Source: Ruania albidiflava DSM 18029
GTDB lineage: Bacteria > Actinomycetota > Actinomycetes > Actinomycetales > Beutenbergiaceae
DNA: 64,000 bases
Direction of reading: 5' to 3'
Assembly: GCF_000421225.1 (NCBI RefSeq)
Contig: NZ_ATWL01000001.1
Location: forward strand, 248,001 to 312,000
Shown here: one piece after another, positions 9,362-38,620 of the stretch
Layout: each line of letters starts with the position of its first letter
Numbering within the stretch: the stretch's first letter is position 1
Notes under the pieces: model-generated
What the model was told of the DNA's origin: nothing
Database searches by the model: none
The model's input: the letters and a program-made list of their open reading frames with translations, nothing else
Program-made: the position numbers and the translations under genes

Positions 9362-9367
9362 TATGCT
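9362..9367 (+). promoter_or_regulatory. Candidate -10 box of gdhA
   Basis: TATGCT lies in the most A/T-rich stretch of the 248-bp gap before gdhA (locally ATAGTAACGACAGGATAAAAAG). It would give a leader of about 125 nt. The -35 region is poor, so this is tentative. The rest of the gap, apart from the terminator hairpin, shows no recognisable element. Confidence 0.35.
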
Positions 9368-9389
9368 CCAGGACGGCCCACCGCCGTGA

Positions 9390-10868
<1,479 letters not shown>

Positions 10869-10880
<12 letters not shown>

Positions 10881-14922: not shown

Positions 14923-14930
14923 GGCATCTA

Positions 14931-14952
14931 CTGTACCGGCTGGACGGTACAG
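14931..14952. promoter_or_regulatory. TetR-family operator between the MFS and tetR genes
   Basis: Perfect 8-bp inverted repeat CTGTACCG (14931-14938) and CGGTACAG (14945-14952) with a 6-bp spacer. It covers the TACAGT -10 box of the MFS gene (14930-14935 on the minus strand) and lies 36-57 bp from the TetR -10. Binding would block MFS transcription directly. Similar CTGTACCG-type palindromes are common for TetR regulators of DHA2 transporters. Confidence 0.8.
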
Positions 14953-14987
14953 CGTGGTCGTGGCCTCTGGTGACGTCGCTCACCACG

Positions 14988-14993
14988 TAGGCT
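14988..14993 (+). promoter_or_regulatory. -10 box of leaderless tetR
   Basis: TAGGCT ends 7 nt before ATG 15001 and no Shine-Dalgarno sequence is present. This matches the leaderless layout repeated across the window. Confidence 0.55.
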
Positions 14994-15000
14994 CGAATGC

Positions 15001-15525: not shown

Positions 15526-15571
15526 GGCGGGGACCTCAGCCTGGTCGCCCGCAGCCGGAGACACCACCTCA

Positions 15572-15593
15572 TCGAGCCTGTCCCATGGCTCGA
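15572..15593. terminator. Bidirectional hairpin between tetR and the araC-type gene
   Basis: Perfect 7-bp stem TCGAGCC (15572-15578) with GGCTCGA (15587-15593) and an 8-nt loop, in the 70-bp gap between two convergent genes. It ends 3 bp from the AraC stop codon. Confidence 0.5.
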
Positions 15594-15595
15594 CA

Positions 15596-22819: not shown

Positions 22820-24067
22820 GTGCCCGCTCAGTTCTCCCGCACGCCCACCGTCACCCAACAGCACGCCCGAGCGGCTGTCGCGGCACTCTTCCTCACCAAT
22901 GGCGCCCTGATCGCCAACCTGCTCCCCCGCTACCCGGAGATCAAGTCAGCACTCGCCCTGGGCAACACCACCTACGGGCTGACCATCGCGGCACTGCCCA
23001 CCGGCGCGATCGCCGCGGGTCTGTTCGCCGCCGCGTTGATCCGGCGTTTCGGTTCCGCACCGGTCGCTGTGATCGGCACAGTGGGCACCAGCATCGCCAT
23101 CCTGCTGGCCGGGATCTCGCCGTCGGCCGGCCTGTTCGCGGTCGGGTTGTTCCTGGCCGGCGCCCTGGACGCGATCACCGACGTCGCCCAGAACGCCCAT
23201 GCCCTGCGGGTACAGCGGGAGTACCGTCGCTCGATCCTGAACTCCTTCCACGCCGTCTGGTCGATCGGTGCGGTGCTCGGCGGTTCGATGGCTGCCGCTG
23301 CGATCGCGCTGAACGTACCGCTGGGCTGGCACCTGGGCGTCTCGGCGCTCGTCTTCGCGATCGTCGCCCTGGTCGCGCTGCGGTTCTGCCTACCCGGCCC
23401 GGACCAGGTCGCGCAGCAACCGGACGGTCCCGGTCAGGGCACCTCGGCGGCTGCGGCACGGGGCGGCGGTCCGTCGCGCACCCCGGTCTCCGGCCGCACG
23501 GTGCTCGTGCTGCTGGCGTTCGTGCTGGTGGCGATCTCCGGTGCCCTGGTCGAGGACGCCGGCAACTCCTGGGCGGCGTTGTACCTCTCCGCCGACCTGG
23601 GTGCACCGGCAGCGCTGGCCGCTACTGGCTACATCGCACTGGTGGGTGCACAGACGGTGGGTCGGCTGCTCGGCGACCGGCTGGTGGACCGCTACGGGCA
23701 GCGGGCCGTCGCCCGGGCCGGTGGAGTGATCGTGACCGTCGGGATGGGCACCGCTCTGGCGCTACCCACAGTGCCGGGCACGATCGCCGGCTTCGCGCTC
23801 GCAGGGTTCGGGGTGGCCACCCTGGTGCCGGCGGCGATGTCCGAGGCGAACGACCTGCCGGGCCTGCGCCCGGGCACCGGACTGACTGTGGTGTCCTGGC
23901 TGATGCGGCTCGGGTTCCTCGCCTCCCCGCCGGTGGTGGGCCTGGTCGCGGACGCCACGTCGTTGCGGGTCGGGTTGCTGGTGGTGCCGCTGGCGGGTGT
24001 GCTGGTGGTCCTGCTCGCCGGGGTGCTCTCTGGCCGCAGACGTCGCACCATCACGGCACCGGGATGA
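22820..24067 (+). CDS. MFS transporter, YbjJ/FucP-like
   Basis: 415 residues, about 12 membrane helices, GTG start at 22820 on a probable leaderless mRNA. The N-terminal segment FLTNGALIANLLPRYPEIK, and DVAQNAHALRVQREYRRSILNSFHAVWS in the middle, match the branch of MFS proteins that includes YbjJ and sugar porters such as FucP. Such proteins move sugars or small metabolites across the membrane with protons. It ends by overlapping the convergent anmK remnant by 17 bp. A role in importing a peptidoglycan sugar is possible from the neighbours but unproven. Confidence 0.8.
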   Translation: MPAQFSRTPTVTQQHARAAVAALFLTNGALIANLLPRYPEIKSALALGNTTYGLTIAALPTGAIAAGLFAAALIRRFGSAPVAVIGTVGTSIAILLAGISPSAGLFAVGLFLAGALDAITDVAQNAHALRVQREYRRSILNSFHAVWSIGAVLGGSMAAAAIALNVPLGWHLGVSALVFAIVALVALRFCLPGPDQVAQQPDGPGQGTSAAAARGGGPSRTPVSGRTVLVLLAFVLVAISGALVEDAGNSWAALYLSADLGAPAALAATGYIALVGAQTVGRLLGDRLVDRYGQRAVARAGGVIVTVGMGTALALPTVPGTIAGFALAGFGVATLVPAAMSEANDLPGLRPGTGLTVVSWLMRLGFLASPPVVGLVADATSLRVGLLVVPLAGVLVVLLAGVLSGRRRRTITAPG

Positions 24068-24908
24068 TCTGTCCGCCCGCCGGGGCCACGACCAGCCGGC
24101 GCACCGGCGCCAGCGCGGCGGTCCGCGGCACGGGCACCGGCGGCGTCAGCGAACCGAGCACTGTGGGCAGACGTGCTCCGGTGGCGCGCGGCCCGTCCGG
24201 GTCGGCAGGGTCGGCGGGTGCGGTGCCGGGCAGCCCGTGCACGGACAGGTAGCCGAGCAGCGCGAACAGGTACGCCTCTTTCGCGTCGGCGTCCAGGCCC
24301 CAGTCGGTCGCGGTCCGCAGCGGTGGCAGCAGCTCGGCCAGGCGCGCCATCAGCACCGGATTGCGCACTCCGCCACCGGAGACCACCACCCGGGTCACAC
24401 CGGAGCCAGTGATCGCATCGGCCACAGTACGCGCGGTCAGCTCGGTGAGCGTGGCGAACAGGTCGGCCCCCTGCGGCGCCGGTACGCCTGCTGCGGCCAG
24501 GCGCTCGGCCACGTAGCCGGCGTGGAAGTGCTCCCGGCCGGTGGTCCGCGGCAACGGCTGGCGGTAGAAGTGCCGGTCTCCTGCGCAGCGGCGTCGAGCA
24601 GGCTGACCAGGGGTGCTCCGTGCCCGCCGGCGGCCACGTCCGCAGTGCGGAAGTCGTGCACCACCGGCAGCCCGGTCGCCGCGTGGATCCATGCGGGTGC
24701 GCCGATCTGCAACGTGCTGCGCACATCTACTGCGCGCACGTCGTGGAACAGCGTCTGGCCGTGGCTGGCGACCAGGTTTGGGCCAGGGCACCTCCAGGTG
24801 ACCGCACGGGACCAGCTGGAGCGCGCCGTCGTCGACCGGGCTGAGCTCTGCCAGGGCGACGTCGATCGCGTCCACCGACGTGCCAGAGCTCACGGCGAGG
24901 ACTCGCAT
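24051..24908 (-). pseudogene. anmK: anmK remnant: anhydro-N-acetylmuramic acid kinase with two internal frameshifting deletions
   Basis: AnmK converts 1,6-anhydro-MurNAc to MurNAc-6-P. The frame from ATG 24908 begins like AnmK ([17 protein letters not shown]) up to VPWP, then loses similarity. The next family block, [15 protein letters not shown] to [15 protein letters not shown], lies in another frame (about 24780-24580). From [20 protein letters not shown] (about 24570) to the end, similarity returns in the first frame. About 40-50 residues are missing at the first junction and 80-100 at the second, including the conserved NIGG and D-T-G-P-GN region. No in-frame stop arises because the two shifts cancel. 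The 285-residue product, against roughly 370-400 for the family, cannot be an active kinase. It overlaps nagZ by one base, so both were once one operon. Confidence 0.85.
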
Positions 24909-26449
24909 CAGTCGCCGAGCACCAGGCGCAGCGCGGCCTCCGCGTTCGCCCGGCCCACCCCGTGGGCGAGCACCAGCCGGGGCGCGGGCGGGGCGGCTGA
25001 CGCCATCCCGCCGTGCAGCACGACGGCGTCACCTCGCCGGTCCAGCAGCAGGTCCAGGTCCGCCTGCTCCCGCGGGTCGGCGAGCGGTTCGCGGGTCAGG
25101 GCCATCACCGCAGCGTCACCCAGGCCGTCGAGAACGTCCTCCAGGGGCGGGGCGTCGTCAGCACCGGCGAGCACGACGCGGGCGTCCGGGAAGCGTTCGA
25201 CCAGCGCGTTCGCGAACCCTGGTGCGACCCGGCCGGTGGCCTGGTTGTAGCGTCGCCGCAGGTCGACCAGCACCGGGGGTGGCCCGGCGGATCCGGGCCC
25301 AGGCAGCCGCGCGTCGCCAGCTGCCACCTGCACGGCTGCGCGCGCCACGTCACGCCCGACAGCGGTCACCGCAGCCTCGGCCGCAGCCAGGTCCGGCACC
25401 GGGGCCTGCCCCTGGTACCGGGCCACATCTGAGCGGAGCCCGTCCAGGCGGGTGATGCTCGCCGCCAGTGCGGCGGGGTCCAGCTCACCGCGGTGCAGGG
25501 CGGTGAGGATGCCGTCGACGGCGGTGGTCAGCATCGCTTCGTCGTCCCGTCCGCTGGTGGTGCCCAGGCAGAGCAGGTCCGCACCGGCCTGCAGTGCCCG
25601 TACGCAGGCCACCGCCAGACCGGGACCGTCCCCGTCACTGACGGCAGCCATGTCCAGGGCGTCGGTGATGATCACCCGGTCCGCTCCTCCGGGGAGGGTG
25701 CGGACCAGGGCGGTGACGGCCGGTTCCAGGCTGGCTGGCCGGGGGCCGAGCGCGGGGATGTGCAGGTGCCCGGTCATCATCGCGTCCAGTCCGGCGGTGG
25801 CCGCGGCATGGAACGGTGGTAGGTCACGGACGGTCAGCTCCTCGGCGGTCACGTCCAGGCGGGGGAGCTCGAGGTGGGAGTCGGTGGTGGTGGCGCCGTG
25901 GCCGGGGAAGTGCTTGCCGCATCCCGCCACGCCCCCGGTGTGCAGCCCGGTCAGGAATGCGCTGCCGTGCCGGGCCACCTGCTGCGGGTCTGGGCCGAAC
26001 GAGCGGACCCCGATCACCGGGTTCGTCGGTTCGCTGGCCACGTCCAGCACCGGCGCCAGGTCCAGGTCGATGCCCGTGGCCCGCAGCAGCGCGCCGAGCG
26101 CGGCGCCGGCCCGTTCGGTGAGCGCGAGGTCGTCGGCAGCGCCCAGTGCGGCCGCCCCGGGCAGGGCTGATCCCGACCCGGCCTGCAGCCGGGAGACGTC
26201 CCCGCCCTCCTCGTCCACGCTGATCAGCACCGGACCAGCGGCGTGCAGCGCAGCGGTCAGGGCGCGAGTGGTCTCCAGGTCGGGGGCGTTCTGGGCGACC
26301 AGCATCACCCCGCCCAACCCGTCCGCGACGGCACGGGTGAGCCATCGCGGCGCCGTGCTGCCGCTGAAACCGGGCATCAGCACCCCGAGGGCGAGCCTGC
26401 TGAGCGGGTCGAGCGAGACGCCGCCGGACGGCGTGGGGCTTCTGTCCAT
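24908..26449 (-). CDS. nagZ: Beta-N-acetylhexosaminidase NagZ (GH3)
   Basis: 513 residues from ATG 26449; a GTG at 26455 is a possible alternative. It removes terminal GlcNAc from muropeptides. Catalytic motifs are the GH3 signature KHFPGHGATTTDSH, carrying the His/Asp acid-base pair, and ITDALDM with the nucleophile aspartate. The N-terminal barrel contains GGVMLVAQNAPD and SVDEEGGDVSRL. About 150 residues follow the barrel as a C-terminal domain, as in Bacillus NagZ. No signal peptide or lipobox is visible, so it should act in the cytoplasm. It is transcribed with the anmK remnant and is divergent from the namZ operon, marking it as part of the muropeptide salvage locus. Confidence 0.9.
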   Translation of the reverse strand: MDRSPTPSGGVSLDPLSRLALGVLMPGFSGSTAPRWLTRAVADGLGGVMLVAQNAPDLETTRALTAALHAAGPVLISVDEEGGDVSRLQAGSGSALPGAAALGAADDLALTERAGAALGALLRATGIDLDLAPVLDVASEPTNPVIGVRSFGPDPQQVARHGSAFLTGLHTGGVAGCGKHFPGHGATTTDSHLELPRLDVTAEELTVRDLPPFHAAATAGLDAMMTGHLHIPALGPRPASLEPAVTALVRTLPGGADRVIITDALDMAAVSDGDGPGLAVACVRALQAGADLLCLGTTSGRDDEAMLTTAVDGILTALHRGELDPAALAASITRLDGLRSDVARYQGQAPVPDLAAAEAAVTAVGRDVARAAVQVAAGDARLPGPGSAGPPPVLVDLRRRYNQATGRVAPGFANALVERFPDARVVLAGADDAPPLEDVLDGLGDAAVMALTREPLADPREQADLDLLLDRRGDAVVLHGGMASAAPPAPRLVLAHGVGRANAEAALRLVLGD

Positions 26450-26458
26450 GGACACATC

Positions 26459-26464
26459 ATGCTA
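26459..26464 (-). promoter_or_regulatory. -10 box of nagZ
   Basis: TAGCAT on the minus strand ends 9 nt before ATG 26449 (3 nt before GTG 26455). No ribosome-binding site is seen, so a leaderless mRNA is likely. The 85-bp region between nagZ and namZ also holds a TTGACG (26479-26484) pointing toward namZ. Confidence 0.45.
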
Positions 26465-26534
26465 GGTTCTGTGACTCATTGACGAAAACCGGATTCCGTA
26501 CGTCAGTGCCTTACACCGATGTGGGGAGACATCT

Positions 26535-27719
26535 GTGCCGATCGCACCGCCGCGGACCGGGCTGGACCGCGTGCTCGACGACCCGGACCTGCTCCGGGTT
26601 GGCAGCATCGCCCTGTGCACCAACTACACCGCCGTCACCGGTGCACTGGGCCGCGGGGTGGACGCCCTGGTGACGGCGGGTCTACCGGTGCGACGTCTGC
26701 TCACCCCCGAGCACGGCTACTGGGGCGGTGTCCAGGCCGGCGAGAGCGAGGGCGACGGCCAGGACGAGGCCACCGGGCTCCCGGTGCTGGACACCTATGG
26801 CGTGTCCGGTGCCGACCTGGACACGCTGCTGGAACGCACCGGCGCCGACCAGGTGGTGCTCGACCTGCAGGACATCGGCACCCGGTTCTACACCTACACC
26901 TGGACACTGTTCGACCTGCTCTGCTCCGCGGCCCGAACCGGGCACCAGGTCGTGGTGTTGGACCGGCCCAACCCGCTCGGCGGCGTGGCAGCGGGTCCCG
27001 GGCTGGACCCGGCCTGCACCAGCTTCGTCGGCCGGGTGTCCGTGCCGCTGCAGCACGGCCTGACCCTGGGTGAGCTGGCCCGCTGGTTCAATGCCGTGCA
27101 CGTGCCGGAGGCGACCGGCGCCCGGGCCGCGCTCCAGGTGGTCCAGGCCGCCGGCTGGACCCGGGAGGCGGCACCGCTCGGGCAGCTGTGGGTGCCGCCC
27201 TCGCCGAACATGCCGACCCGCACCACTGCTCAGCTCTACCCGGGCACCGGGCTGCTGGAGGGCACCACCCTCTCCGAGGGCCGGGGCACCACGAAACCGT
27301 TCGAGCTGTTCGGCGCCCCGTGGACCGACGCCCGGCTGGCAGCTGCCCTCGCCGAGCAGGCGCTGCCCGGGGTGCAGGTGCGGGAGGCAGTGTTCACTCC
27401 GATGTTCGCCAAGCACGCCGGTGCGCGGGTGCACGGCGCACAGCTGCACCTGAACGACCCGTCCGCCTTCGACCCGGTGCGCACGGGGCACACGCTGCTG
27501 AGCACCCTCGCCACGCTCTACCCCGAGCAGCCGCTCTGGCGGGAGGCGGCCCCCGGGCGGCCACACTTCCTCGACCTGCTCTGGGGCAGCCCGGCACTGC
27601 GCGAAGGCATCGATGCGGGCCGCTCGCTGGCCCAGGTGCTGGCCGCGAGCCCACCGGCACCCACCCCACCACCGGACACCCTGCTCTACTCCCCCACCAC
27701 CACGGAGGTTCTCGCGTGA
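26535..27719 (+). CDS. namZ: Exo-beta-N-acetylmuramidase NamZ-like (DUF1343, GH171)
   Basis: 394 residues, GTG start with GGGGAGA 5 nt upstream. NamZ of Bacillus subtilis (YbbC) releases MurNAc from the non-reducing end of peptidoglycan fragments. Family marks are CTNYTAV near the N-terminus, the catalytic-site segment RRLLTPEHGYWGG, VLDLQDIGTRFYTYTWTL, LDRPNPLGG, and PSPNMPTRTTAQLYPGTGLLEG with TLSEGRGTTKPFE. The Bacillus enzyme is secreted; this one starts directly with the mature fold and has no signal peptide, so cytosolic action is inferred. First gene of a tightly overlapping eight-gene operon. The GTGA overlap with the next gene implies translational coupling. Confidence 0.9.
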   Translation: MPIAPPRTGLDRVLDDPDLLRVGSIALCTNYTAVTGALGRGVDALVTAGLPVRRLLTPEHGYWGGVQAGESEGDGQDEATGLPVLDTYGVSGADLDTLLERTGADQVVLDLQDIGTRFYTYTWTLFDLLCSAARTGHQVVVLDRPNPLGGVAAGPGLDPACTSFVGRVSVPLQHGLTLGELARWFNAVHVPEATGARAALQVVQAAGWTREAAPLGQLWVPPSPNMPTRTTAQLYPGTGLLEGTTLSEGRGTTKPFELFGAPWTDARLAAALAEQALPGVQVREAVFTPMFAKHAGARVHGAQLHLNDPSAFDPVRTGHTLLSTLATLYPEQPLWREAAPGRPHFLDLLWGSPALREGIDAGRSLAQVLAASPPAPTPPPDTLLYSPTTTEVLA

Positions 27720-28426
27720 CTGGCCGAACGATCCTCGCTGTCGGCGGGCACATCGGCGACATGGACCTGGCCGCCGGCCCGCTGCTGGCGCAGAACACCC
27801 TCGACGGCGGTCGGTCGGTGCTCCTGGCGCTCACCCCGGGTGAACGGGGCCACCCGCGGCTCGGCGTGGCCGAGTACAAGGAGCAGAAGATCACCGAGGC
27901 CCGCACGTTCGCCGCGGGCATCGGTGCCGAGGTGATCGTCTACGATGACCTGTCCGACGGGTTCCTGCACTGCACCGACGACGTCGCCGCTCGCCTGGCG
28001 CGGGACATCCGCACCATCCGCCCCGACCTGCTGCTCGCGCACTGGGGGCGCAGCATCCACACCGACCACGAGCAGGCGAGCCTGCTCGCCGAGCGGGCCC
28101 GGTTCCTGGCCGGGCTGCCCGGTTGGGAGGAGGACCCCGGCGCCGCCGATGGTCCGGGCCGCCGGCACGGGGTGGGTCAGCTGCTCTACACCGAGAACTG
28201 GGAGGACACGGACGGCTTCCTCGCTACCCGCTACACCGCCGTCTCACAGCGTGCCCGGGACCTGTGGCTGGAGGCGATCGGCTGCCAGGCCTTCGCTCGC
28301 GGGGAGACCTACGGCTTCCGCTACATCGACTACTACGATGCCCAGCTGATCACCCGAGGGTGCCTGGCCGGGGTGAGCCACGCCGTCGCACTGGCCGAGG
28401 GCGGCCACGGGCTGCGGGAGGTGTGA
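27716..28426 (+). CDS. PIG-L/LmbE-family deacetylase
   Basis: 236 residues from the GTG overlapping the namZ stop. The PIG-L fold is indicated by the N-terminal strand plus metal-binding motif and by the C-terminal H-x-D-H motif (IHTDHEQASLLAERA). The usual A-H-P-D-D-E is replaced by G-H-I-G-D-M-D, a variant seen in a PIG-L branch from sugar-degradation clusters; the first histidine and one aspartate are kept. Known family members deacetylate N-acetylglucosamine-type amino sugars with zinc. Here a GlcNAc- or MurNAc-containing fragment is the natural candidate substrate. No signal peptide is present. Confidence 0.75.
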   Translation: MTGRTILAVGGHIGDMDLAAGPLLAQNTLDGGRSVLLALTPGERGHPRLGVAEYKEQKITEARTFAAGIGAEVIVYDDLSDGFLHCTDDVAARLARDIRTIRPDLLLAHWGRSIHTDHEQASLLAERARFLAGLPGWEEDPGAADGPGRRHGVGQLLYTENWEDTDGFLATRYTAVSQRARDLWLEAIGCQAFARGETYGFRYIDYYDAQLITRGCLAGVSHAVALAEGGHGLREV

Positions 28427-28430
28427 TCCG

Positions 28431-29411
28431 ATGGCGACCACCTTCCGCACCCACCGGGCCGGCGATGCTGCGGCGTTGGCGGCACTGACCACGCTGGCGA
28501 TGCCGCAGGACGCCGTCGACGTGCCCACGCTCACCGAGAACGTGCTGCTGGACGAGAACTTCCAGCCCGAAGGGCTGATCGTCGCTGAGCACGACGGCGT
28601 CCCCGTGGGTTTCGTCTACGCGGTCACCAGTGCCGGGGCCGGGTCGGGCCAGGAGGCACCCGGCGGTTGGCTGACCATCGGCTGTGTGCACCCCGACCAC
28701 CGCGGCCGCGGTGTGGGCACCGGGCTGCTCACCCGAGCGGTTCGCTACCTCGCCGAGCGGGGCGCTGCCTGGGTGAACGTGGCCGCCTACGCCCCCGCCT
28801 ACTTCGTGCCCGGGCTGGACGTGGTCGCCTACCCGGAGGCGGCACGGCTGCTGGAGCAGCACGGTTTCACCCGGTTGTACACCGCGGCGGCGATGGCGCT
28901 GGAGCTGAGCACCTACCGCACTCCTGCGGACGTGCTCGCTCTCGCCGAGGAACGAACCGCGCAGGGCTACCAGCTCGGTCCGGCCACCCCGGACGACCTG
29001 CCGGAGGTGATCGACTTCGCCGGCCGCGAGCTCGCCCCGGACTGGGCGGACGCAGTGCGGGAAGCGGTGCTGCGCCACGGCCACCTGCACCGGCTGCGGA
29101 TCGTGCGCGGCCCCACCGGTGTGGCCGGTTTCGCCATCTACGGCGCCTACCGGGGCCTGCGAGAGCGGTTCGGCCCGTTCGGGGTGGACGAGTCCCTGCG
29201 CGGCACCGGTCTGGGCAAGATCCTGCTGCACCACACACTGACCGCGATGCGTGCGGAGGGGGCGCACAGCGCCTGGTTCCTGTGGACCGGTGAGGACTCG
29301 CCGGCCGGGCACCTGTACCGACGCACCGGCTTCACCGTGACCCGGCGGTTCGACGTCCTCCGGCACGAGCTCACACCATCCACCCAGACCACGAGGGAGA
29401 GGTCCGAATGA
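28431..29411 (+). CDS. Protein with two GNAT acetyltransferase domains
   Basis: 326 residues. The first GNAT domain (about 5-160) has the acetyl-CoA loop GCVHPDHRGRGVGTGLL. The second (about 185-310) carries a weaker version, GVDESLRGTGLGKILLHHTL, and FLWTGEDSPAGHLYRRTGF at its end. It starts 4 bp after the PIG-L stop and overlaps the binding-protein gene by ATGA, so it belongs to the muropeptide operon. A role in acetylating an amino sugar or peptide amine released by the deacetylase or hydrolases is possible, but no substrate is known. Confidence 0.8.
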   Translation: MATTFRTHRAGDAAALAALTTLAMPQDAVDVPTLTENVLLDENFQPEGLIVAEHDGVPVGFVYAVTSAGAGSGQEAPGGWLTIGCVHPDHRGRGVGTGLLTRAVRYLAERGAAWVNVAAYAPAYFVPGLDVVAYPEAARLLEQHGFTRLYTAAAMALELSTYRTPADVLALAEERTAQGYQLGPATPDDLPEVIDFAGRELAPDWADAVREAVLRHGHLHRLRIVRGPTGVAGFAIYGAYRGLRERFGPFGVDESLRGTGLGKILLHHTLTAMRAEGAHSAWFLWTGEDSPAGHLYRRTGFTVTRRFDVLRHELTPSTQTTRERSE

Positions 29412-31060: not shown

Positions 31061-32034
31061 AGTACCTGCTGCGCAAGGTTGCGCTGTACGCGTTCATCGC
31101 CTGGTCGGCGATCACGCTGAACTTCCTCATCCCCCGGCTCATGCCGGGGGACCCGGTCACCCTGCTGGTGGAGCGGATGGAAGGGCGGATCGAACCGGAG
31201 GCGATGGCAGCGATCGCGGAGAGCTACGGCATCACCGACGACCCGTTGCACGTGCAGTACTGGACCTACCTGGGCAACCTGTTCCAGGGCGATCTCGGCC
31301 TGTCGATCGGGTTCCACCCCACCCCCGTGGCCGAGATCGTCATGGGTGCCCTGCCCTGGACGCTCGGGCTGGTCGGCATCACCACCATCATCAGCTTCGT
31401 GATCGGCACCGGCCTGGGCGTGGTGCTCGCCTGGCGCCGCGGCTCCTGGAGCGACCACGCGCTGCCCACGCTGACGTTCCTGAACGCCGTGCCGTACTTC
31501 TGGATGGCGCTGATCCTGGTGCTGGTGTTCTCGGTGAACCTGGGCGTGTTCCCGGTGGCCGGCGCCTACGACGTGAACATCGACCGGGCCTGGAGCTGGG
31601 AGTTCGTCTCCTCGGTGCTCTACTACGGCACGCTGCCGGCGATCACCATCGTGATCGCATCGTTCGCCGGCTGGGTGCTGAACATGCGGAACATGACCGT
31701 GACCGTGCTCGGGGAGGACTTCGTCACCCTCGCCGAGGCCAAGGGGCTGCCCAAGCGGATGGTGCTGGTGAACTATGCCGCCCGGAACGCGATCCTGCCC
31801 TCGGTCACCGGTTTCGCCCTCGCCCTGGGTGCGGTGGTCGGCGGTTCGATGCTCACCGAGGTGATCTTCAACTACCCCGGTGTGGGCTACACCCTGTTCC
31901 AGGCGGTGCAGAACCACGACTTCCCGCTGATGCAGGGGCTGTTCCTGATCATCTCCCTGGCGGTGATCGTGGCGAACCTGCTCGCCGACATCGTCTACAT
32001 CTTCCTCGACCCGCGCACCCGAGCGGAGGCCTGA
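31057..32034 (+). CDS. ABC transporter permease, DppB/OppB type
   Basis: 325 residues from the GTG overlapping the lipoprotein stop. It has six membrane helices and the BPD_transp_1 coupling segment TVLGEDFVTLAEAKGLPKRMVLVNYAARNAILPSV, with the usual EAA-G pattern. The N-terminal FLIPRLMPGDPVTLLVERM is typical of DppB/OppB. It forms one half of the channel; the other half is fused to an ATPase in the next gene. Only 3 bp separate the two genes. Confidence 0.9.
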   Translation: MKYLLRKVALYAFIAWSAITLNFLIPRLMPGDPVTLLVERMEGRIEPEAMAAIAESYGITDDPLHVQYWTYLGNLFQGDLGLSIGFHPTPVAEIVMGALPWTLGLVGITTIISFVIGTGLGVVLAWRRGSWSDHALPTLTFLNAVPYFWMALILVLVFSVNLGVFPVAGAYDVNIDRAWSWEFVSSVLYYGTLPAITIVIASFAGWVLNMRNMTVTVLGEDFVTLAEAKGLPKRMVLVNYAARNAILPSVTGFALALGAVVGGSMLTEVIFNYPGVGYTLFQAVQNHDFPLMQGLFLIISLAVIVANLLADIVYIFLDPRTRAEA

Positions 32035-32037
32035 AGG

Positions 32038-33801
32038 ATGCGGCTGCGTTCCTGGCTCCCCACCTCCGGCAAGGTCCTGGCCGGTCTGGTGATCGTCGTC
32101 GTCTTCGCGCTGGTGGCGATCGTCGGACCGATGGTCGCCCAGTACGGGCCGCGTGCCTCCGGTCCGGAGGTCCTCGCCCCACCCTCGGCCGCGCACTGGT
32201 TCGGGACCACGCAGACCGGGCAGGACGTGTTCGCCCAGTTCGTCTACGGTGCTCGGGTGTCCCTGGCGGTGGGCGTGTTCGCCGGTGTGGTCTCCCAGGT
32301 GGTGTCCATCGTGGTGGGCGTGATCGGCGGCTACTTCCGCGGGCTGGTCGACGACGGGATGTACATCCTCACCGCTGTGTTCCTGGTGATGCCGGGGATG
32401 CCGCTGCTGATCGTGCTCACCGGCTACCTGCCCTCGCGCGGGATGATCTCGGTGGCAGTGGTCATCGCGATCACCTCGTGGGCCGGGTCGGCGCGCGTGC
32501 TGCGGGCCCAGACGATGTCGCTGCGGCGCCGCGACTTCGTGGAGGCCGCGCGGGCGACGGGTGAGTCCCGGGTGCGGATCATCGTCAGCGAGATCATGCC
32601 GAACGCGTTGCCGCTGATCGCCTCCGGGTTCCTGTTCTCGGTGATCACCGGCATCCTGTCCGAGGCGGGTCTGTCCTTCCTCGGGCTCGGGTCGCTGACC
32701 TCCACCAGCTGGGGCACGATGCTGTACTTCGCGCAGAACGCGCAGGCGTTCCTCATCGGTGCCTGGTGGTGGTTCGTCCCCCCTGGGCTCGCGATCGCGA
32801 TCATCGGGGCAGGGCTGGCGCTGATCAACTTCGGCATCGACGAGTACGCCAACCCCCGGCTGCGCACCGGGAAGAGCCGGGCGAAGAGCGCCCCCGCGCC
32901 GCTGGCTGCGGCCACCGCCGAGGAGCCCCACTCGCCTGTGCCCGACCAGGAGCCGCAGATCCGGCCGGGCGGCAGCCAGGCCGACCCGGTGATCGAGGTG
33001 GCTGGTCTGACGGTCGACTATGACACCGCCGAGGGGCGGGTGCATGCGGTCAAGGACGTCTCGCTGACCGTGCGCCGCGGTGAGCTGCTCGGCCTGGCCG
33101 GCGAGTCCGGCAGCGGCAAGTCGACGTTGACGAACACCATCACCCGGTTGCTGCGGCCACCAGCAGAGGTGACAGGTGGTTCGGTCACCTACCACCGCCG
33201 CGGCACCGGTGCTCAGCAGGAGCCGGTGGACCTGCTGCACCTGCCGGCTGATGAGCTGCGCCGGTTCCGCTGGACCGAGCTGTCCATCGTGTTCCAGAGT
33301 GCGATGAACGCGCTGAACCCGGTGATGCGCATCTCTGCACAGTTCGACGACGTCCTGCGCGTGCACCGGCCGCAGATGCGCCCGGCGGCGCGGCTGGAGC
33401 TGGCCCGCACGATGCTCACCCGTGTGGGAATCGACCCGGAGCGGGTCAGCGCCTACCCGCACGAGCTCTCCGGTGGGATGAAGCAGCGGGTGGCGATCGC
33501 GATCGCCCTGGTCTGCGACCCGGACGTGATCGTGATGGACGAGCCCACCACAGCGCTCGACCTGCTGGTGCAGCGGGAGGTGCTGGACCAGGTGATGGCG
33601 CTGCAGGAGGAGTTCGGCTTCGCGATCATCTTCACCACGCACGACCTGTCCCTGCTGCTGGAGGTCTCCGACACCATCGCAGTGATGCAGCAGGGCCGAC
33701 TGGTGGAGTACGGCGCCGCCATGGACGTCTACACCGACCCGCGTCACCCCTATACGCAGACTCTGCTGCGTTCGCTGTCCGACCTGGGAGCCCTGGTATG
33801 A
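32038..33801 (+). CDS. Fused ABC permease (DppC type) and ATP-binding protein (DppD type)
   Basis: 587 residues. Residues 1-280 are a complete DppC-like permease: six helices, HWFGTTQTGQDVFAQFVYGAR near the N-terminus and the coupling loop RRDFVEAARATGESRVRII. A Pro/Glu-rich linker of about 40 residues leads to a full DppD-like ATPase with Walker A GESGSGKST, signature LSGGMKQRVAIA, Walker B VIVMDEPTTALD and the C-terminal HPYTQTLLRSL motif. Such permease-ATPase fusions occur in some actinobacterial oligopeptide importers. The fusion gives a 1:1 ratio of one channel half and one motor. It overlaps the second ATPase gene by ATGA. Confidence 0.9.
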   Translation: MRLRSWLPTSGKVLAGLVIVVVFALVAIVGPMVAQYGPRASGPEVLAPPSAAHWFGTTQTGQDVFAQFVYGARVSLAVGVFAGVVSQVVSIVVGVIGGYFRGLVDDGMYILTAVFLVMPGMPLLIVLTGYLPSRGMISVAVVIAITSWAGSARVLRAQTMSLRRRDFVEAARATGESRVRIIVSEIMPNALPLIASGFLFSVITGILSEAGLSFLGLGSLTSTSWGTMLYFAQNAQAFLIGAWWWFVPPGLAIAIIGAGLALINFGIDEYANPRLRTGKSRAKSAPAPLAAATAEEPHSPVPDQEPQIRPGGSQADPVIEVAGLTVDYDTAEGRVHAVKDVSLTVRRGELLGLAGESGSGKSTLTNTITRLLRPPAEVTGGSVTYHRRGTGAQQEPVDLLHLPADELRRFRWTELSIVFQSAMNALNPVMRISAQFDDVLRVHRPQMRPAARLELARTMLTRVGIDPERVSAYPHELSGGMKQRVAIAIALVCDPDVIVMDEPTTALDLLVQREVLDQVMALQEEFGFAIIFTTHDLSLLLEVSDTIAVMQQGRLVEYGAAMDVYTDPRHPYTQTLLRSLSDLGALV

Positions 33802-34640
33802 CCGCCATCGAGACCGAGCCAGCCTCCCCCACAGCCGAGGTCGTGCTCGAGGCCCGCGACCTGGTCAAGGACTTCGCCGGCCGGCGGCGAGGGCTGCGCC
33901 GGGAACGGATGCGTGCCGTCGACCAGGTCTCGCTGCAGCTGCGCCGCGGGGAGGTCACCGCGTTGGTGGGGCAGAGCGGTTCCGGGAAGAGCACAGTGGG
34001 CCGTCTGCTCGCCCAGCTGCTGCCGCCCACCTCCGGGCAGATTCTGCTGCACGGCACACCCGTGGCCGCCACCAGCGGTCGGGCGTTCATCCGGTACACC
34101 GGCGCAGTGCAGATGACGCTGCAGGATCCGTTCGCCTCGCTGAACCCGGTGCACCGGGTGGACCATGTGCTCGGGCGTGCGCTGGCCATCCACGGCCGGG
34201 CCCGCGGCCGGGACCAGGTGCACGAGCAGAGCCTGGCGTTGCTGGAGAAGGTGGAGCTCACCCCGCCGGAGCGCTACCTGCACCGGTTCCCGCACGAGCT
34301 CTCCGGTGGGGAGCGGCAACGGATCTCCTTCGCCCGGGCGCTGGCGGCCCAGCCCCAGGTGTTGCTCGCCGACGAACCGGTGTCCATGCTGGACGTGACG
34401 ATCCGCAAGGAGATGCTGGACCTGCTGGACAGTCTGCGACGCAGCGAGAACCTGGCGGTGCTGTACATCACCCACGACCTGGGGTCGGCGCGGGCCTACT
34501 CCAGCCGGACGCTGGTGATGTATCACGGGGTGGTCGTGGAGCGTGGCAGCAGCGCCGCCGTGATCGACGACCCGCAGCACGAGTACACCCGACGGCTGCT
34601 GGCAGCGGCCCCGAACCCGCGCCGGCGTCTGGCCGGCTGA
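33798..34640 (+). CDS. ABC transporter ATP-binding protein, DppF/OppF type
   Basis: 280 residues. Walker A is GQSGSGKST, the signature is LSGGERQRISFARAL, Walker B is VLLADEPVSMLD, and the C-terminal HEYTRRLLAA segment is the shortened oligopeptide-binding ATPase tail. It is the second motor of the importer together with the fused ATPase. Its ATG overlaps the preceding stop and murQ starts 12 bp after it, linking transport and sugar catabolism in one mRNA. Confidence 0.9.
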   Translation: MTAIETEPASPTAEVVLEARDLVKDFAGRRRGLRRERMRAVDQVSLQLRRGEVTALVGQSGSGKSTVGRLLAQLLPPTSGQILLHGTPVAATSGRAFIRYTGAVQMTLQDPFASLNPVHRVDHVLGRALAIHGRARGRDQVHEQSLALLEKVELTPPERYLHRFPHELSGGERQRISFARALAAQPQVLLADEPVSMLDVTIRKEMLDLLDSLRRSENLAVLYITHDLGSARAYSSRTLVMYHGVVVERGSSAAVIDDPQHEYTRRLLAAAPNPRRRLAG

Positions 34641-34652
34641 GAGGTGCAGCAG

Positions 34653-35573
34653 ATGACCAGCAGCGCACAGGACGCCCGCCACCTGGCGACCCTGACCACC
34701 GAGCGGGTGGACGAGCGCTACCACGACCTGGACCGGCGTTCCACCCTCGAGGTGCTCACCGCGCTGAACGATGCCGAGGCACAGGTGCCGCTTGCGGTGC
34801 GGGCGGTGCTGCCGGAGCTGGCACTCCTGGTGGATGCGACCGCGCGCCGGCTGCGGGCGGGCGGCCGCCTGGTGTATGTGGGGGCCGGCACGTCCGGTCG
34901 CCTCGGCGTGCTGGACGCCGCGGAGTGCCCGCCGACGTTCCACGTCGCTCCGGAGACGGTGACCGGGGTGATCGCCGGCGGACCGGCGGCCGTCTTCGCC
35001 TCGGTGGAGGCGGCGGAGGACTCTGCCGAGGCTGGGGCGGCCGAGATGACCGACCTGGCGGTCGGTGCCGGTGACACCGTGGTGGGCATCGCTGCCAGCG
35101 GGCGCACCCCGTTCGTGCTCGGTGCAGTACGTGCCGCCCGGGCAGCCGGGGCCCTGACCGCCGCGATCTCCTGCAACACCGGGTCCCCGCTGGCGGCGCA
35201 GGTGGACCACCCGTTGGAGGTGGAGGTCGGCCCGGAGGTGATCGCCGGCTCCACCCGGCTGAAGGCCGGATCGGCCACCAAGCAGCTGCTGAACATGCTC
35301 TCCACAGCGGTGATGGTCCGCAACGGCAAGACCTATCAGAACCTGATGGTGGACCTGACGATCAGCAACGGCAAGCTGCGCGACCGGGGGGAACGCCTGC
35401 TGGTGCGGATCACCGGCTGCAGCCGACAGGACGCGGCCACCGCGCTGCGCGCTGCCGGCGACCGGGTTCCGGTGGCGGCGGTGATGCTGGTGCACGAGGT
35501 CGACCCCGGCCGGGCGGACGATCTGCTCGCTGCCGCCGACGGCCATCTGGCCCAGGTCATCGACCCCGCCTGA
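34653..35573 (+). CDS. murQ: N-acetylmuramic acid 6-phosphate etherase
   Basis: 306 residues from ATG 34653 (GAGAGG 8 nt upstream); a GTG at 34644 is in frame but without a ribosome site. MurQ removes the D-lactyl ether from MurNAc-6-P to give GlcNAc-6-P. The SIS domain contains VYVGAGTSGRLGVLDAAECPPTF with the conserved catalytic glutamate, EAAEDSAEAG with the second glutamate, and RLKAGSATKQLLNMLSTAVMVR. It is the last gene of the namZ operon and convergent with the amiE-like gene. Its substrate must come from phosphorylation of MurNAc; the only such kinase in the window, AnmK, is broken. Confidence 0.95.
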   Translation: MTSSAQDARHLATLTTERVDERYHDLDRRSTLEVLTALNDAEAQVPLAVRAVLPELALLVDATARRLRAGGRLVYVGAGTSGRLGVLDAAECPPTFHVAPETVTGVIAGGPAAVFASVEAAEDSAEAGAAEMTDLAVGAGDTVVGIAASGRTPFVLGAVRAARAAGALTAAISCNTGSPLAAQVDHPLEVEVGPEVIAGSTRLKAGSATKQLLNMLSTAVMVRNGKTYQNLMVDLTISNGKLRDRGERLLVRITGCSRQDAATALRAAGDRVPVAAVMLVHEVDPGRADDLLAAADGHLAQVIDPA

Positions 35574-35594
35574 CCACTCTCAGGGGGTGGCCGG

Positions 35595-36719
35595 TCAGGT
35601 GGCGGTGCGGGCGAGCCTGGCCAGGTCCTGACGGAGCCCGGACACCTCGAAGCGGTCGCGGTGTGGATGCACCCGGTTGGTGAGCAGCACGGTGACCAGC
35701 TCCCGGGCCGGGTCGATCACCACTGCGGTGCCGGTGAAGCCGCTGTGGCCGAGCACGCCGGGATCGGTGGTGGCCATCAGCGACTCCTGCCCGAGGCGGA
35801 ACCCGATCGCCTGGTCATACCCGACCCGCTGCGCCTCCGCTGCGGAGAGCGTGCCGGTGCGCAGCAGCGCGCGAGAGTCCTCGCTGAGCAGGCCCGCCGC
35901 CCCAGTGCGCACCTCCTCGCCGAAGACGAGCAGGTCATCCGCTGTGGAGAAGATCCCGGCGTTACCGGCGCCGCCCAGGGTCCAGGCGGTCTCGTCGTGC
36001 ACCTGGCCGCGGACCAGCCCGCGCGGTGGGTCCTGCTGGTACTCGGTGGCCACGACCGGCCGCCCTCCCGGGTCGTAGCCGGTGTCGGTGAGCCCCAGCG
36101 GACCGGTGACGCTCGCCTGCACCAGCTCCGGCAACGGCCGACCGGTGAGGCGCTCCAGCAGCAGCCCGAGCACCAGGTAGCCGACGCAGGAGTACTCGTG
36201 CCGCTCCCCCGGTGGGGCGGTGAGCGGTGCGGACAGCACGCGCCGGGCGTGCTCGGCGCGGCTGCCCGGGGTACGCCACAGCTGTCGCACGGCCGGCAGG
36301 CCGGCCGTGTGGTTCAGCAGGTGCCGGGGCAGGATCCGGCGTCGGTCGGTATCTCCCCCGGCAGCGAGGTCGGGCAGGTCCTCGGCGACCGGGCGGTCCA
36401 GGTCGAGCACCCCGGCATCCACCTGCACCAGGGCGGTGACGGCGGTGAGCAGCTTGGTCACCGAGGCCACGTCCCACAGGTGCTCGCCGGTGACCGGTTC
36501 CCGCTCGGTCTCCGGCAGCAGGTCGCCGTCGGCGTCGAACGCGACCGCCCAGCCCGACCGTGCCTGGGCGAGCACCTCGCCCCGGCGGGCGATCAACGCC
36601 ACTGCCCCCGGCGCGCCGTCGAGAGGACCATCCTGCCCCGGTGCGCCCGCCCGGGCCACCGAGGTGGCGCCGTCGAGCAGGTCCTGCAGCTCGCGCTGCA
36701 GCTGCCGGTGTGCGGTCAT
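35595..36719 (-). CDS. Beta-lactamase-fold serine hydrolase, AmiE-like muropeptide amidase candidate
   Basis: 374 residues. It has the serine-hydrolase motifs S86-x-x-K (VASVTKLL), Tyr176 in the YSC motif (Y-S-N in most relatives), and HSG near residue 320. In Bacillus subtilis a member of this family, AmiE (YbbE), cleaves MurNAc from L-alanine and sits in the same operon as MurQ, MurR, NagZ and NamZ, so the same role is the best guess here. No signal peptide is visible, which points to cytosolic action on imported muropeptides. It overlaps the MurR-like gene by ATGA and is transcribed with it. A different esterase or peptidase specificity cannot be excluded. Confidence 0.72.
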   Translation of the reverse strand: MTAHRQLQRELQDLLDGATSVARAGAPGQDGPLDGAPGAVALIARRGEVLAQARSGWAVAFDADGDLLPETEREPVTGEHLWDVASVTKLLTAVTALVQVDAGVLDLDRPVAEDLPDLAAGGDTDRRRILPRHLLNHTAGLPAVRQLWRTPGSRAEHARRVLSAPLTAPPGERHEYSCVGYLVLGLLLERLTGRPLPELVQASVTGPLGLTDTGYDPGGRPVVATEYQQDPPRGLVRGQVHDETAWTLGGAGNAGIFSTADDLLVFGEEVRTGAAGLLSEDSRALLRTGTLSAAEAQRVGYDQAIGFRLGQESLMATTDPGVLGHSGFTGTAVVIDPARELVTVLLTNRVHPHRDRFEVSGLRQDLARLARTAT

Positions 36720-37564
36720 CGGCGCTGCCGGACCACGTCGTAGGTGCCGCGCAGCGCCTCGGCGGTCTCCTCCATCCTGCGCTGCGCCACGGCCACGAAC
36801 AGGCAGTCCACCACCAGCAGCTGGGCGGTGCGCGAGGCCATCGCGCCGGAGCGGAACCTCGCCTCCCGCACTGTGGTCTGCAGCACCAGGTCGGCAGCCT
36901 TCGCCACCGGGGAGCTGCCCACGTTGGTCACCGCCACCGTCGTGACCCCACGTTCGCGGGCGGCGGCCAGAAAGGTGACCACCTCAGTGGTGGTGCCGCG
37001 GTGGGAGAAGCCGATCGCCACGTCCCCCTCGCCCATCAGTGCGATCGAGGTGAGCGCATCGTGCCCGTCGGCGAAGCAGTATGCGGTGCGCCCGATCCGG
37101 AACAGCTTGCGGTGCAGGTCGGCGGCACTCCAGCCGGACCCGCTGACCCCGTACAGGGAGATCCGGGAAGCGCCGTCGACGGCGTCCACCACCCGGGCCA
37201 GCTCGTCCAGGTCCAGGCTCTCGATCGTCTCCTCGATGCACAGGCTCTCGGTGTACCGGACGGAGTCCACCAGCTCGGCGAGCGTGGAGGAGGCGGAGAT
37301 GTCCGCCACGTCGGTGCCCCCGCGGTGCGCCCCGTCGCGCCCCACCTCAGTGGCCAGCTGCACCCGGAGCTGGACGAACCCGTCCAGACCGAGCTCGCGG
37401 CAGAACCGCACCACCGTGGTCTCCGAGGTGTGGCAGCGGCGGGCCAGGTCGGTGATCGTGCCGCCCAGCATCCGTTGCGGGTCCGCCAGCACGTCCTCGG
37501 CGACGCGCCGGATCGAGGGCGGGTAGCTCTCCAGGCTCGCCTGGATGCGGGACTGGATGTTCAT
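36716..37564 (-). CDS. murR: RpiR-family regulator, MurR-like
   Basis: 282 residues. The N-terminal RpiR helix-turn-helix (1-77) has ITDLARRCHTSETTVVRFCRELG; the SIS sugar-phosphate domain (about 125-265) has ISLYGVSGSGWSAADLHRKL and ISFSHRG-like AIGFSHRGTTTE. MurR of E. coli and B. subtilis senses MurNAc-6-P and controls the mur genes. Genome context (murQ, namZ, nagZ, amiE-like gene) supports that role. A palindrome 37-54 bp upstream of its start may be its own operator. It is the first gene of the murR-amiE pair. Confidence 0.82.
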   Translation of the reverse strand: MNIQSRIQASLESYPPSIRRVAEDVLADPQRMLGGTITDLARRCHTSETTVVRFCRELGLDGFVQLRVQLATEVGRDGAHRGGTDVADISASSTLAELVDSVRYTESLCIEETIESLDLDELARVVDAVDGASRISLYGVSGSGWSAADLHRKLFRIGRTAYCFADGHDALTSIALMGEGDVAIGFSHRGTTTEVVTFLAAARERGVTTVAVTNVGSSPVAKAADLVLQTTVREARFRSGAMASRTAQLLVVDCLFVAVAQRRMEETAEALRGTYDVVRQRR

Positions 37565-37600
37565 CGCTGTTGCCCTCCTGCCCGCTTCGCAGCGGCTTCC

Positions 37601-37618
37601 CTCTGGTCCGGTCCAGAG
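37601..37618. promoter_or_regulatory. Candidate MurR operator upstream of murR
   Basis: Perfect inverted repeat CTCTGG (37601-37606) and CCAGAG (37613-37618), spacer TCCGGT, overlapping a TACTCT -10-like box (minus strand, 37615-37620). The surrounding CCGGTCCAGAGTATCG resembles CCGGTGAGAGTACCG upstream of ddh (38691-38705). Confidence 0.5.
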
Positions 37619-37633
37619 TATCGGGCTCCAGGC

Positions 37634-38620
37634 TCAGAGCAGGTCCGCTCGCAGCTCTTCGGCCGAGCGCGGGGAGAGCAGACCGGGTGGCACGTCGAAC
37701 AGCGTGAGGGCGCCGTGCCGGTGCTGGGCGGCGAGCCGGTGGGTGGCGCGGGCGTAAGCGACCAGCACGCTGGCGGTGAATCCCGGGTTGTCGGCGAGGG
37801 TGAGACCGAACTCGACCAGCTGCCTGTCACCCGCGCCGGTCTGGCCGCTGCGCAGCACGAAACCCCCGTGCGGCATACCGGTGTGGTCGCGGTCCAGCTC
37901 CTCGGCCGTGATGAAGTGCACCGTCGTCTGGTACGGCTCGAAGTAGTCCGGCATGGTGACGATCGCCTCCCGCACCTCCTCGGCGTCCGCACCCTCGGCG
38001 AGCACCACGAAGCACTCCCGGGTGTGCTTCTCCCGGGTGGTCAGGTCCGGGTCCTCGCCCCGGCGCACCGCGTCCACCGCCGCCTGCGACGGGATCGTGT
38101 ACTGCACGCCCGCGGCCACCCCGGGTACGCGGCGCACCGCGTCGGAGTGCCCCTGGCTGAGCCCGCGTCCCCAGAACGTGTACGTCTGCCCTGCGGGCAG
38201 GATCGCCTCGCCCAGCATCCGGTTCAGGGAGAACAGACCCGGGTCCCAGCCGGTGGAGATCAGCGCGGTCCGGCCGCCGGCGCGCGCGCGGGCGTCGACG
38301 GCGGAGAAGTAGTCGGGGATGCGGGCGTGGGTGTCGTAGGAGTCCACGGTGTGGAACATCCCGGCCAGCTCGGGCCCCTGCACCGGCAGGTCCTCCTTCG
38401 AGCCGCCGCAGAGGATGAGCACGTCGACGTCCTCGGTGCTGCTCGGCAGCCTGTCCCAGGCGAGCACCCGGGTCTCCGGCCGCTCGGGGCGCACCTGGGC
38501 CGGGTCGCGGCGGGTGAAGACTCCCACCAAGGTCATGTCCGCATTCTGTGCGACCGCGGCCTCCACCCCCCGTCCGAGGTTGCCGTACCCTGCGATTCCG
38601 ATCCGGATGGTCTCGCTCAC
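37634..38620 (-). CDS. ddh: meso-Diaminopimelate D-dehydrogenase
   Basis: 328 residues from GTG 38620, with GGGAGGG 6 nt upstream; the upstream open frame is not conserved. Ddh interconverts meso-DAP and L-2-amino-6-oxopimelate with NADP and ammonia. Marks are the Rossmann motif RIGIAGYGNLGRG, ILCGGSKEDLP, FHTVDSYDTHARIPDYF, STGWDPGLFSLNR and FWGRGLSQGHSDAVRR, all strongly conserved in the family. It normally serves the lysine and peptidoglycan biosynthesis route, but its location in a salvage locus suggests it may also degrade meso-DAP from imported muropeptides. Its promoter region shares a motif with that of murR. Confidence 0.93.
   Translation of the reverse strand: MSETIRIGIAGYGNLGRGVEAAVAQNADMTLVGVFTRRDPAQVRPERPETRVLAWDRLPSSTEDVDVLILCGGSKEDLPVQGPELAGMFHTVDSYDTHARIPDYFSAVDARARAGGRTALISTGWDPGLFSLNRMLGEAILPAGQTYTFWGRGLSQGHSDAVRRVPGVAAGVQYTIPSQAAVDAVRRGEDPDLTTREKHTRECFVVLAEGADAEEVREAIVTMPDYFEPYQTTVHFITAEELDRDHTGMPHGGFVLRSGQTGAGDRQLVEFGLTLADNPGFTASVLVAYARATHRLAAQHRHGALTLFDVPPGLLSPRSAEELRADLL

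Follow-up and report, generated by a model that had tools for sequence, protein, structure and literature searches.

A 64,000-nucleotide stretch of the Ruania albidiflava DSM 18029 genome, called the window here and used for all coordinates unless stated otherwise, carries a gene cluster that is likely a salvage operon for muramyl sugars. Unphosphorylated fragments of the N-acetylmuramic acid-N-acetylglucosamine (MurNAc-GlcNAc) type would be taken up by an ATP-binding cassette (ABC) importer, cleaved in the cytosol, phosphorylated by a kinase and processed by MurQ. The observations behind this proposal are the gene families, the lack of visible signal segments, the synteny in relatives and the receptor subgroup. 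Gene families were assigned with Pfam and NCBIfam curated cut-offs, and all open reading frames (ORFs) were confirmed where a preliminary description of the locus had placed them. Eight plus-strand genes (26535-35573) follow each other in the order namZ, PIG-L, double GNAT, receptor, permease B, permease C/ATPase D, ATPase F and murQ. Adjacent genes either share 4 bases or are separated by 3-4, which bears out the tight operon described earlier. The nagZ gene and an anmK remnant are divergent from the operon, and genes for a serine hydrolase and an RpiR-type regulator converge on murQ. The ORF and Pfam survey found no phosphotransferase system (PTS) gene within the locus, in agreement with the earlier claim that an importer stands in its place.

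We infer a pathway in which the lipoprotein receptor would catch MurNAc-GlcNAc and/or GlcNAc-MurNAc, perhaps with a short peptide, and the importer of the dipeptide/oligopeptide family, with permease C and ATPase D fused, would carry the disaccharide inside unphosphorylated. Once in the cytosol, any peptide would be taken off by an AmiE-like hydrolase. At MurNAc ends, NamZ would cleave MurNAc away from GlcNAc, and GlcNAc would be detached from MurNAc by NagZ. Amino sugars lacking an N-acetyl group would have it restored by the tandem GNAT protein, making them accessible to the hydrolases. MurNAc 6-phosphate (MurNAc-6P) would be made by a MurK-type (BadF/BcrAD) kinase whose gene lies elsewhere in the genome, and MurQ would remove D-lactate from this product to yield GlcNAc 6-phosphate (GlcNAc-6P). 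The RpiR-type regulator might sense MurNAc-6P.

Signal-less NamZ proteins and the site of cleavage

The first gene of the operon (26535..27719, plus strand) encodes a protein with the domains NamZ_N and NamZ_C (PF07075 and PF20732) and the motifs PEHG, here within PEHGYWG, and SEGRGT. The NamZ profile matches structure 4k05 with an E-value of 2e-70. The protein is a predicted exo-N-acetylmuramidase, of a family that we take to be GH171, cleaving MurNAc from non-reducing ends. A NamZ_N search of 248 genomes of the order returned 48 matches in 41 genomes. Scores fall in two sets, with 36 matches above 230 bits (first kind) and 12 at 158-207 bits (second kind), the window NamZ being among the latter. 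For comparison, loci were taken around all 11 other second-kind genes, and around first-kind genes in nine wider (L042-L050) and 30 short stretches (L001-L030).

Signal segments were judged by inspection and hydropathy, not by a signal-peptide predictor. All 12 second-kind proteins start within a few residues of the domain (about 20 in L034), and no signal-like segment was seen in them. The first kind shows a signal segment in all 30 proteins examined out of 36 matches, often behind paired arginines. An unrooted tree of 48 NamZ proteins has one branch (100/98) separating 30 signal-bearing from 18 signal-less members. After addition of 17 rows from the class, a branch of the 65-row tree (100/99) parts 32 signal-bearing proteins, including the added L203 and L204, from 33 signal-less ones, including the window NamZ. 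The motif PEHGYWG was dropped as a signature of signal-less NamZ because other such proteins read PEHGLRG or PEHGMAG; it marks the branch of the window.

The other two hydrolases are a NagZ-like beta-N-acetylglucosaminidase of glycoside hydrolase family 3 (24908..26455, minus strand; PF00933, 200.8 bits) and an AmiE/YfeW-like serine hydrolase (35595..36719, minus strand; PF00144, 206.7 bits). The earlier claim that NamZ, NagZ and the AmiE-like protein lack a visible signal peptide held in the window and in relatives, with NagZ the least clear-cut. Across 24 reads from 18 genomes, again without a signal-like segment, the longest uncharged run spans 5-14 residues, versus 15-35 in full-length lipoprotein receptors used as controls (L135 was set aside as broken, and hydropathy scores overlap slightly). 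The window proteins have runs of 16 (NagZ, of low hydropathy), 9 (NamZ) and 6 residues (AmiE-like). Where the upstream region was included, NagZ and AmiE-like genes beside first-kind NamZ mostly encode a hydrophobic leader. The AmiE-like motifs SxxK and YSC are kept in 16 of 16 reads from 13 genomes, and by PF00144 membership only the protein is a putative N-acetylmuramyl-L-alanine amidase. MurQ (34644..35573, plus strand), the MurNAc 6-phosphate etherase, passes its curated equivalog cut-off (TIGR00274, 338.5 bits against 302). Curated cut-offs were missed by NagZ (168 of 207 bits), MurR (120 of 408) and the AmiE-like protein (best model PBP4B, 104 of 385), so family membership and context are the basis for these three names.

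Seven of the 12 genomes with a second-kind NamZ, R. albidiflava included, also encode the first kind, and five have the second kind only. The first-kind NamZ of R. albidiflava carries a signal segment. Cytosolic hydrolysis is therefore a property of the locus and not of the whole genome, and the preliminary view of all hydrolases as cytosolic stands for the locus only. Comparison of the loci gives good support to an order of import first and cleavage in the cytosol.

Synteny of the importer with salvage genes

The importer comprises a receptor (29408..31060), permease B (31057..32034; PF00528), a permease C-ATPase D fusion (32038..33801; PF00528 at residues 91-276, PF00005 at 338-505) and ATPase F (33798..34640; PF00005), all on the plus strand. 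Permease C and the first ATPase form a single in-frame protein of 587 amino acids. The two permeases and two ATPases of the preliminary description thus exist as domains, distributed over three membrane/ATPase proteins.

All 11 other second-kind NamZ loci of the order, retrieved as 20-kb stretches of which five were extended, encode the double GNAT and the same importer set, so the synteny proposed earlier recurs in other actinobacterial genomes. The weight of this result rests on recurrence, not on a model of random gene order. One of the 11, L040, misses permease B, the fusion and parts of the receptor and ATPase F. At about 11300-12920 of this locus (also L110), from Brachybacterium halotolerans, the frame of the receptor continues into the last part of ATPase F, by either a deletion or an assembly error. 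With extensions counted, an AmiE-like gene is present in nine of the 11 loci, and PIG-L in five.

A search independent of NamZ, in which named genomes were scanned with the receptor profile, gave 46 loci. NamZ lies within the stretch at 12 of 15 loci with a receptor at least 45% identical, versus 1 of 31 with a more distant receptor. The 12 loci belong to Ruania, Occultella, Isoptericola, Brachybacterium and Phytoactinopolyspora, and the receptor of 'Candidatus Ruania gallistercoris' is 85% identical to that of the window. Two Microlunatus loci and an additional Brachybacterium timonense receptor make up the other three. The sole distant-receptor locus with NamZ is from Fodinicola and has broken frames. 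The barest form was found in a Brachybacterium metagenome-assembled genome (MAG; L097), with namZ, receptor, permease B, permease C/ATPase, ATPase, murQ and a murR-like gene before the contig ends.

In the Microlunatus loci (L098, L100) the importer stands alone, with a right-handed beta-helix protein upstream. In Streptosporangium and Nonomuraea (L105, L107-L109) the window-type importer is accompanied by double GNAT and PIG-L, and the stretch gave no match to NamZ or MurQ. A lactate-racemase-type gene (Lar_N) lies beside the operon of B. timonense (L035 12497-14041; L101 5776-7320) and may use the D-lactate released by MurQ.

A second importer appears in the wider class. The profile of second-kind NamZ matched 75 of 394 genomes of the class, and 18 loci were fetched: most of the top-scoring ones outside the family of Ruania, all eight matching genomes of another family (f35) and an extra copy in f35 (L203). 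All eight f35 loci with a signal-less NamZ combine a different Opp-family importer with double GNAT, MurQ and an AmiE-like gene. In the first seven, the receptor is 22-25% and permease B 36-39% identical to the window proteins; the receptor gene of L202 is cut off by the end of the stretch. In five of the seven f35 loci reaching that far, the row begins with a BadF-type kinase and NagZ. The NamZ starts in L197 and L202 leave no room for a leader; those in the other loci are less sure, as up to 36 further codons could be read upstream, in L200 including a hydrophobic patch. Pfam confirmed the genes of L198. Its kinase matches a MurNAc/GlcNAc kinase structure at 1.9e-15, second after a hexokinase (5e-17), and its receptor matches solved structures weakly (best 3e-16). 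In the extra copy, L203, NamZ bears a signal segment and neither MurQ nor GNAT was matched. Among the remaining nine loci, L189 has the window-type importer, L190 has a distant Opp-like set about 3 kb off, and six show none (L192 retains a scrap of ATPase F); the ninth, L204, has a signal-bearing NamZ in the Bacillus arrangement considered below. The importer can hence be missing while NamZ, GNAT, PIG-L and regulator stay.

We tentatively propose, at somewhat less than even confidence, that two different Opp-family importers were recruited separately in Actinomycetes to bring in muramyl disaccharides in unphosphorylated form. One would have a receptor descended from chitobiose binders, and both would be tied to a signal-less cytosolic NamZ, MurQ and a glucosaminide acetyltransferase. 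A further row was seen in a member of the window's genus without second-kind NamZ (L142, G189:C2:514001-530000, about 3911-15620). It contains genes for a MurR-like protein, a receptor of the peptide-binding kind, permeases, MurQ, an intact AnmK, a mandelate-racemase/muconate-cycloisomerase-type protein, possibly an Ala-Glu epimerase, and ATPases. Together with the window operon, this row indicates that murein salvage and Opp-family import came together on more than one occasion in the genus.

Receptor subgroup and likely cargo

The receptor is a lipoprotein of the SBP_bac_5 family with an LSAC lipobox. Compared with all solved structures, its profile matches Vibrio chitooligosaccharide binders at 1e-96 to 1e-101 and other sugar binders, presumably Thermotoga proteins, at 1e-69 to 1e-83; the next match is at 1e-38. 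The window sequence alone scores 270 bits with the Vibrio protein versus 76 bits with the murein peptide-binding MppA. The receptor is thus closer to solved sugar binders than to peptide binders and falls in a chitooligosaccharide/beta-glycan subgroup, cluster C-IV in PMC8449061 (all articles are cited here from excerpts). For the Vibrio protein VhCBP, that article attributes much of the binding to Trp363, Asp365 and Trp513, with D365 and W363 essential. These positions were transferred by hand through a HMMER alignment to 12 receptor rows. The place of Asp365 holds Asp in 12 of 12 rows, that of Trp363 an aromatic residue in all 12 (Trp in four) and that of Trp513 Phe or Tyr in 10. Conservation is not general at Asn204, Asn409, Phe411 and Phe437, and only the window and G234 rows retain Arg436. 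An AlphaFold model of the receptor was too poor (mean pLDDT 55.9) and was not used.

With its altered pocket, such a sugar receptor suits a muramyl disaccharide well, without proving muramyl cargo. Its closeness to chitooligosaccharide binders and its distance from MppA make a muramyl disaccharide, bearing a peptide or not, the likely cargo, and a MurNAc-containing disaccharide seems most likely. The earlier label of an oligopeptide-type importer fits the Opp-family architecture but not the receptor; the system is more aptly called an Opp-architecture sugar importer than a peptide importer.

The preliminary description had larger muropeptides imported whole. Its order of import and internal cleavage agrees with the comparison of loci, and for its peptide-bearing cargo a disaccharide is at least as likely. 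That the importer takes up disaccharide-peptides, making the cytosolic amidase an essential step, is somewhat unlikely in our view. A signal-less AmiE-like hydrolase in the window, in nine of 11 other loci of the order and in all eight second-importer loci would suit this cargo, as would the transport of anhydromuropeptides by YejBEF-YepA of the same superfamily (PMC9790009). However, the receptor belongs to a disaccharide-binding subgroup distant from the murein-peptide binder MppA, the amidase activity is putative, and the AmiE-like gene is absent from L034, with its extension, and from L035.

Carriage of chitin or other GlcNAc oligosaccharides is unlikely. NamZ and MurQ would then share regulation because their products merge at GlcNAc-6P. 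The closeness of the receptor to the Vibrio (GlcNAc)2 binders speaks for this cargo, and so does the occurrence of the importer without NamZ. Yet namZ is the first gene of the operon, the VhCBP residues reading the N-acetyl group are mostly lost, and a second, different importer has the same partner genes. L097 also keeps NamZ, importer, MurQ and MurR, with GNAT, PIG-L and hydrolase not seen on the contig piece. A chance neighbourhood of an ordinary peptide importer and murein genes would be consistent with the family-level similarity to Opp/Dpp/Nik systems, but the sugar-type receptor and the recurrence of the linkage in several genera make it very improbable. Export of the hydrolases without a visible signal peptide, followed by an extracellular process as in Bacillus, is the least credible option: localisation is predicted from sequence, and in some f35 NamZ frames a start further upstream would add a moderately hydrophobic stretch, but the 30 examined first-kind NamZ of the order do carry signal segments, and the operon importer would be left without disaccharide cargo.

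Several observations weigh against the proposed import and cytosolic cleavage of muramyl disaccharides. Six of the 16 signal-less loci outside the order lack an importer in the stretch, and one has only the distant Opp-like set. MurQ lies within the stretch in only five of the 11 second-kind loci of the order. The window-type importer subgroup also occurs without NamZ and so is not dedicated to muramyl sugars; such loci include the two from Microlunatus, four from Streptosporangium/Nonomuraea (with GNAT and PIG-L only) and 26 from Alicyclobacillus, further Bacillota, Chloroflexi and a single unclassified MAG. Several of these loci lie on short contigs. The VhCBP residues R436 and F437, which read the N-acetyl group, are lost in most rows. 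The signal-bearing NamZ encoded in the R. albidiflava genome means that some MurNAc may be freed outside. L204 (G274:C1:640001-660000) has a signal-bearing NamZ, NagZ, AmiE-like, MurR-like and MurQ, and no importer was seen there. Finally, the window operon contains no kinase gene, and the genome's own AnmK is broken.

Kinase, accessory genes and known systems

ABC uptake would leave the sugar unphosphorylated and MurQ needs the 6-phosphate, so a separate kinase is needed. The anmK remnant (24051..24908, minus strand), directly 3' of nagZ, has an open frame matching only profile positions 226-366 of 367 in Pfam AnmK, with a second piece in another frame. An intact AnmK frame of 390 amino acids lies at the equivalent place in a 'Candidatus Ruania gallistercoris' contig (L092), and no other AnmK above the cut-off was found in the R. 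albidiflava genome or in G234, the other genus member with the operon. The gene is thus a true remnant, as first described, and the operon is independent of AnmK. With its own AnmK dead, the MurNAc kinase would have to be encoded elsewhere. The one BadF/BcrAD-type match over the cut-off (333611-334420, on the same contig outside the window) adjoins a MurR-like regulator. In relatives, BadF/BcrAD-type kinases are immediate neighbours of murQ (G212, G245), and one leads the second-importer row. Judging from these neighbourhoods, a MurK-like kinase step may operate in R. albidiflava. In G212, where MurQ lies beside the BadF-type kinase away from the operon, two receptor genes stand in tandem (L034 13043-16508). 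Two more MurQ-like genes of the R. albidiflava genome fall below the MurQ cut-off (G000:C2:187283-188113 and G000:C12:91547-92398), one of them about 1.4 kb from a PTS enzyme I-type gene.

After the importer, the double GNAT (28431..29411, plus strand; two Acetyltransf_1 stretches) is the most constant partner. It is present in 17 of 18 genomes that combine a signal-less NamZ with a complete or partly deleted window-type importer, the exception being L097; the Fodinicola locus, with its broken frames, was left out of this count. Matches to solved structures are weak and include 7q3a, 5kf1 and the two GNAT-like stretches of 4zm6, a chain annotated as N-acetyl-beta-D-glucosaminidase; one predicted acetyltransferase aligned with both halves of the protein. 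Our best guess is that this candidate amino-sugar N-acetyltransferase re-acetylates amino sugars ahead of NagZ and NamZ.

PIG-L deacetylases have an HPDD motif providing zinc binding and the general base. The PIG-L-fold protein (27716..28426, plus strand; PF02585, 53 bits) reads H-[IA]-G-D (GH[IA]GD), with Gly for the general-base Asp, in all 16 reads, which come from 14 genomes, and a hydratase is among its closest relatives of known structure. The deacetylase function assigned to it at first is therefore doubtful. Excerpts of PMC13041923 speculate on a swap of N-glycolyl-muramic acid; PIG-L and GNAT as such a deacylating and re-acetylating pair were rejected, as the PIG-L motif gives deacetylation no support.

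The meso-diaminopimelate dehydrogenase Ddh (37634..38620, minus strand; DAPDH_C; start at 38620 set by eye) had been thought to handle meso-diaminopimelate within the system. It occurs in both genus members with the operon and in none of five without second-kind NamZ. In eight examined genomes of other genera it is unlinked or absent. Linked to the operon in two genomes only, Ddh is outside the conserved set, was dropped as a pathway member and is at most a co-acquired neighbour. The RpiR/MurR-like regulator (36716..37564, minus strand) combines HTH_6 and SIS domains. The intergenic region between the divergent nagZ and namZ (26456..26534) keeps bases in an alignment of three genomes, and a palindrome upstream of namZ, sought as an inverted repeat of at least 8 in the window copy, was not found and was abandoned as a candidate. 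A DUF222/HNH-endonuclease protein is encoded at 21046-22716 (minus strand); such proteins are ordinary in actinobacteria.

Our literature searches, which covered open-licence papers, showed no article on such a cluster. The Bacillus subtilis gene ybbC is, we assume, namZ. The B. subtilis cluster murQ-murR-murP-amiE-nagZ-ybbC (PMC5061867) shares with the window the enzyme set of MurQ, MurR-like, AmiE-like, NagZ and NamZ. In the window, an ABC importer replaces the PTS protein MurP, the hydrolases are without visible signal peptides, double GNAT and PIG-L are added, and a separate kinase is needed. The MurP model exceeded its cut-off in none of the 12 genomes, with weak matches in 11, two of them near full length (119-124 of 516 bits); only one of 14 control genomes passed this cut-off, so the genome-wide result leaves room for a Bacillus-type MurP. 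The L204 cluster shows that the Bacillus arrangement exists in actinobacteria as well; a partial kinase match follows it after about 3.6 kb.

The working principle resembles that of MurP/MupG in Staphylococcus aureus, with an ABC importer and NamZ replacing PTS and MupG. There, uptake of whole MurNAc-GlcNAc and internal cleavage are established (PMC6262408). Both routes would import the disaccharide whole, cut it inside by an exo-muramidase and proceed to MurQ. However, the S. aureus PTS phosphorylates at uptake, and MupG is a 6-phospho-muramidase of another family. Agrobacterium YejBEF-YepA likewise pairs a peptide-superfamily ABC importer for wall fragments with a cytoplasmic NagZ (PMC9790009), but handles Gram-negative anhydromuropeptides, and YejA-type receptors reach only 90 bits against the profile used here. 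VhCBP, the closest solved receptor, shares the key Asp and aromatic residues at the stacking places (PMC8449061), and differs in most N-acetyl-reading residues and in gene company. MurK of Clostridium acetobutylicum is named in the excerpted part of PMC10465942.

The putative kinase and acetyltransferase steps might also have counterparts. MurK and GlmA of C. acetobutylicum are said to act in wall recovery as a MurNAc/GlcNAc kinase and a glucosaminide N-acetyltransferase, with GlmA reportedly re-acetylating glucosaminides. Their genes presumably lie near nagZ and possibly an Opp-type importer.

If correct, the route with two importers would be a further way of muramic acid salvage beside the PTS protein MurP and AmpG-type uptake. 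None of the Mycobacteriales tested encode MurP homologues, and mechanisms of MurNAc recycling are largely unclear there, according to excerpts of a 2026 preprint (PMC13041923). The receptor subgroup predicts a disaccharide over a peptide as cargo. A named importer, receptor and cytosolic NamZ in culturable genera would offer a testable answer to how actinobacteria without MurP take up muramic acid.

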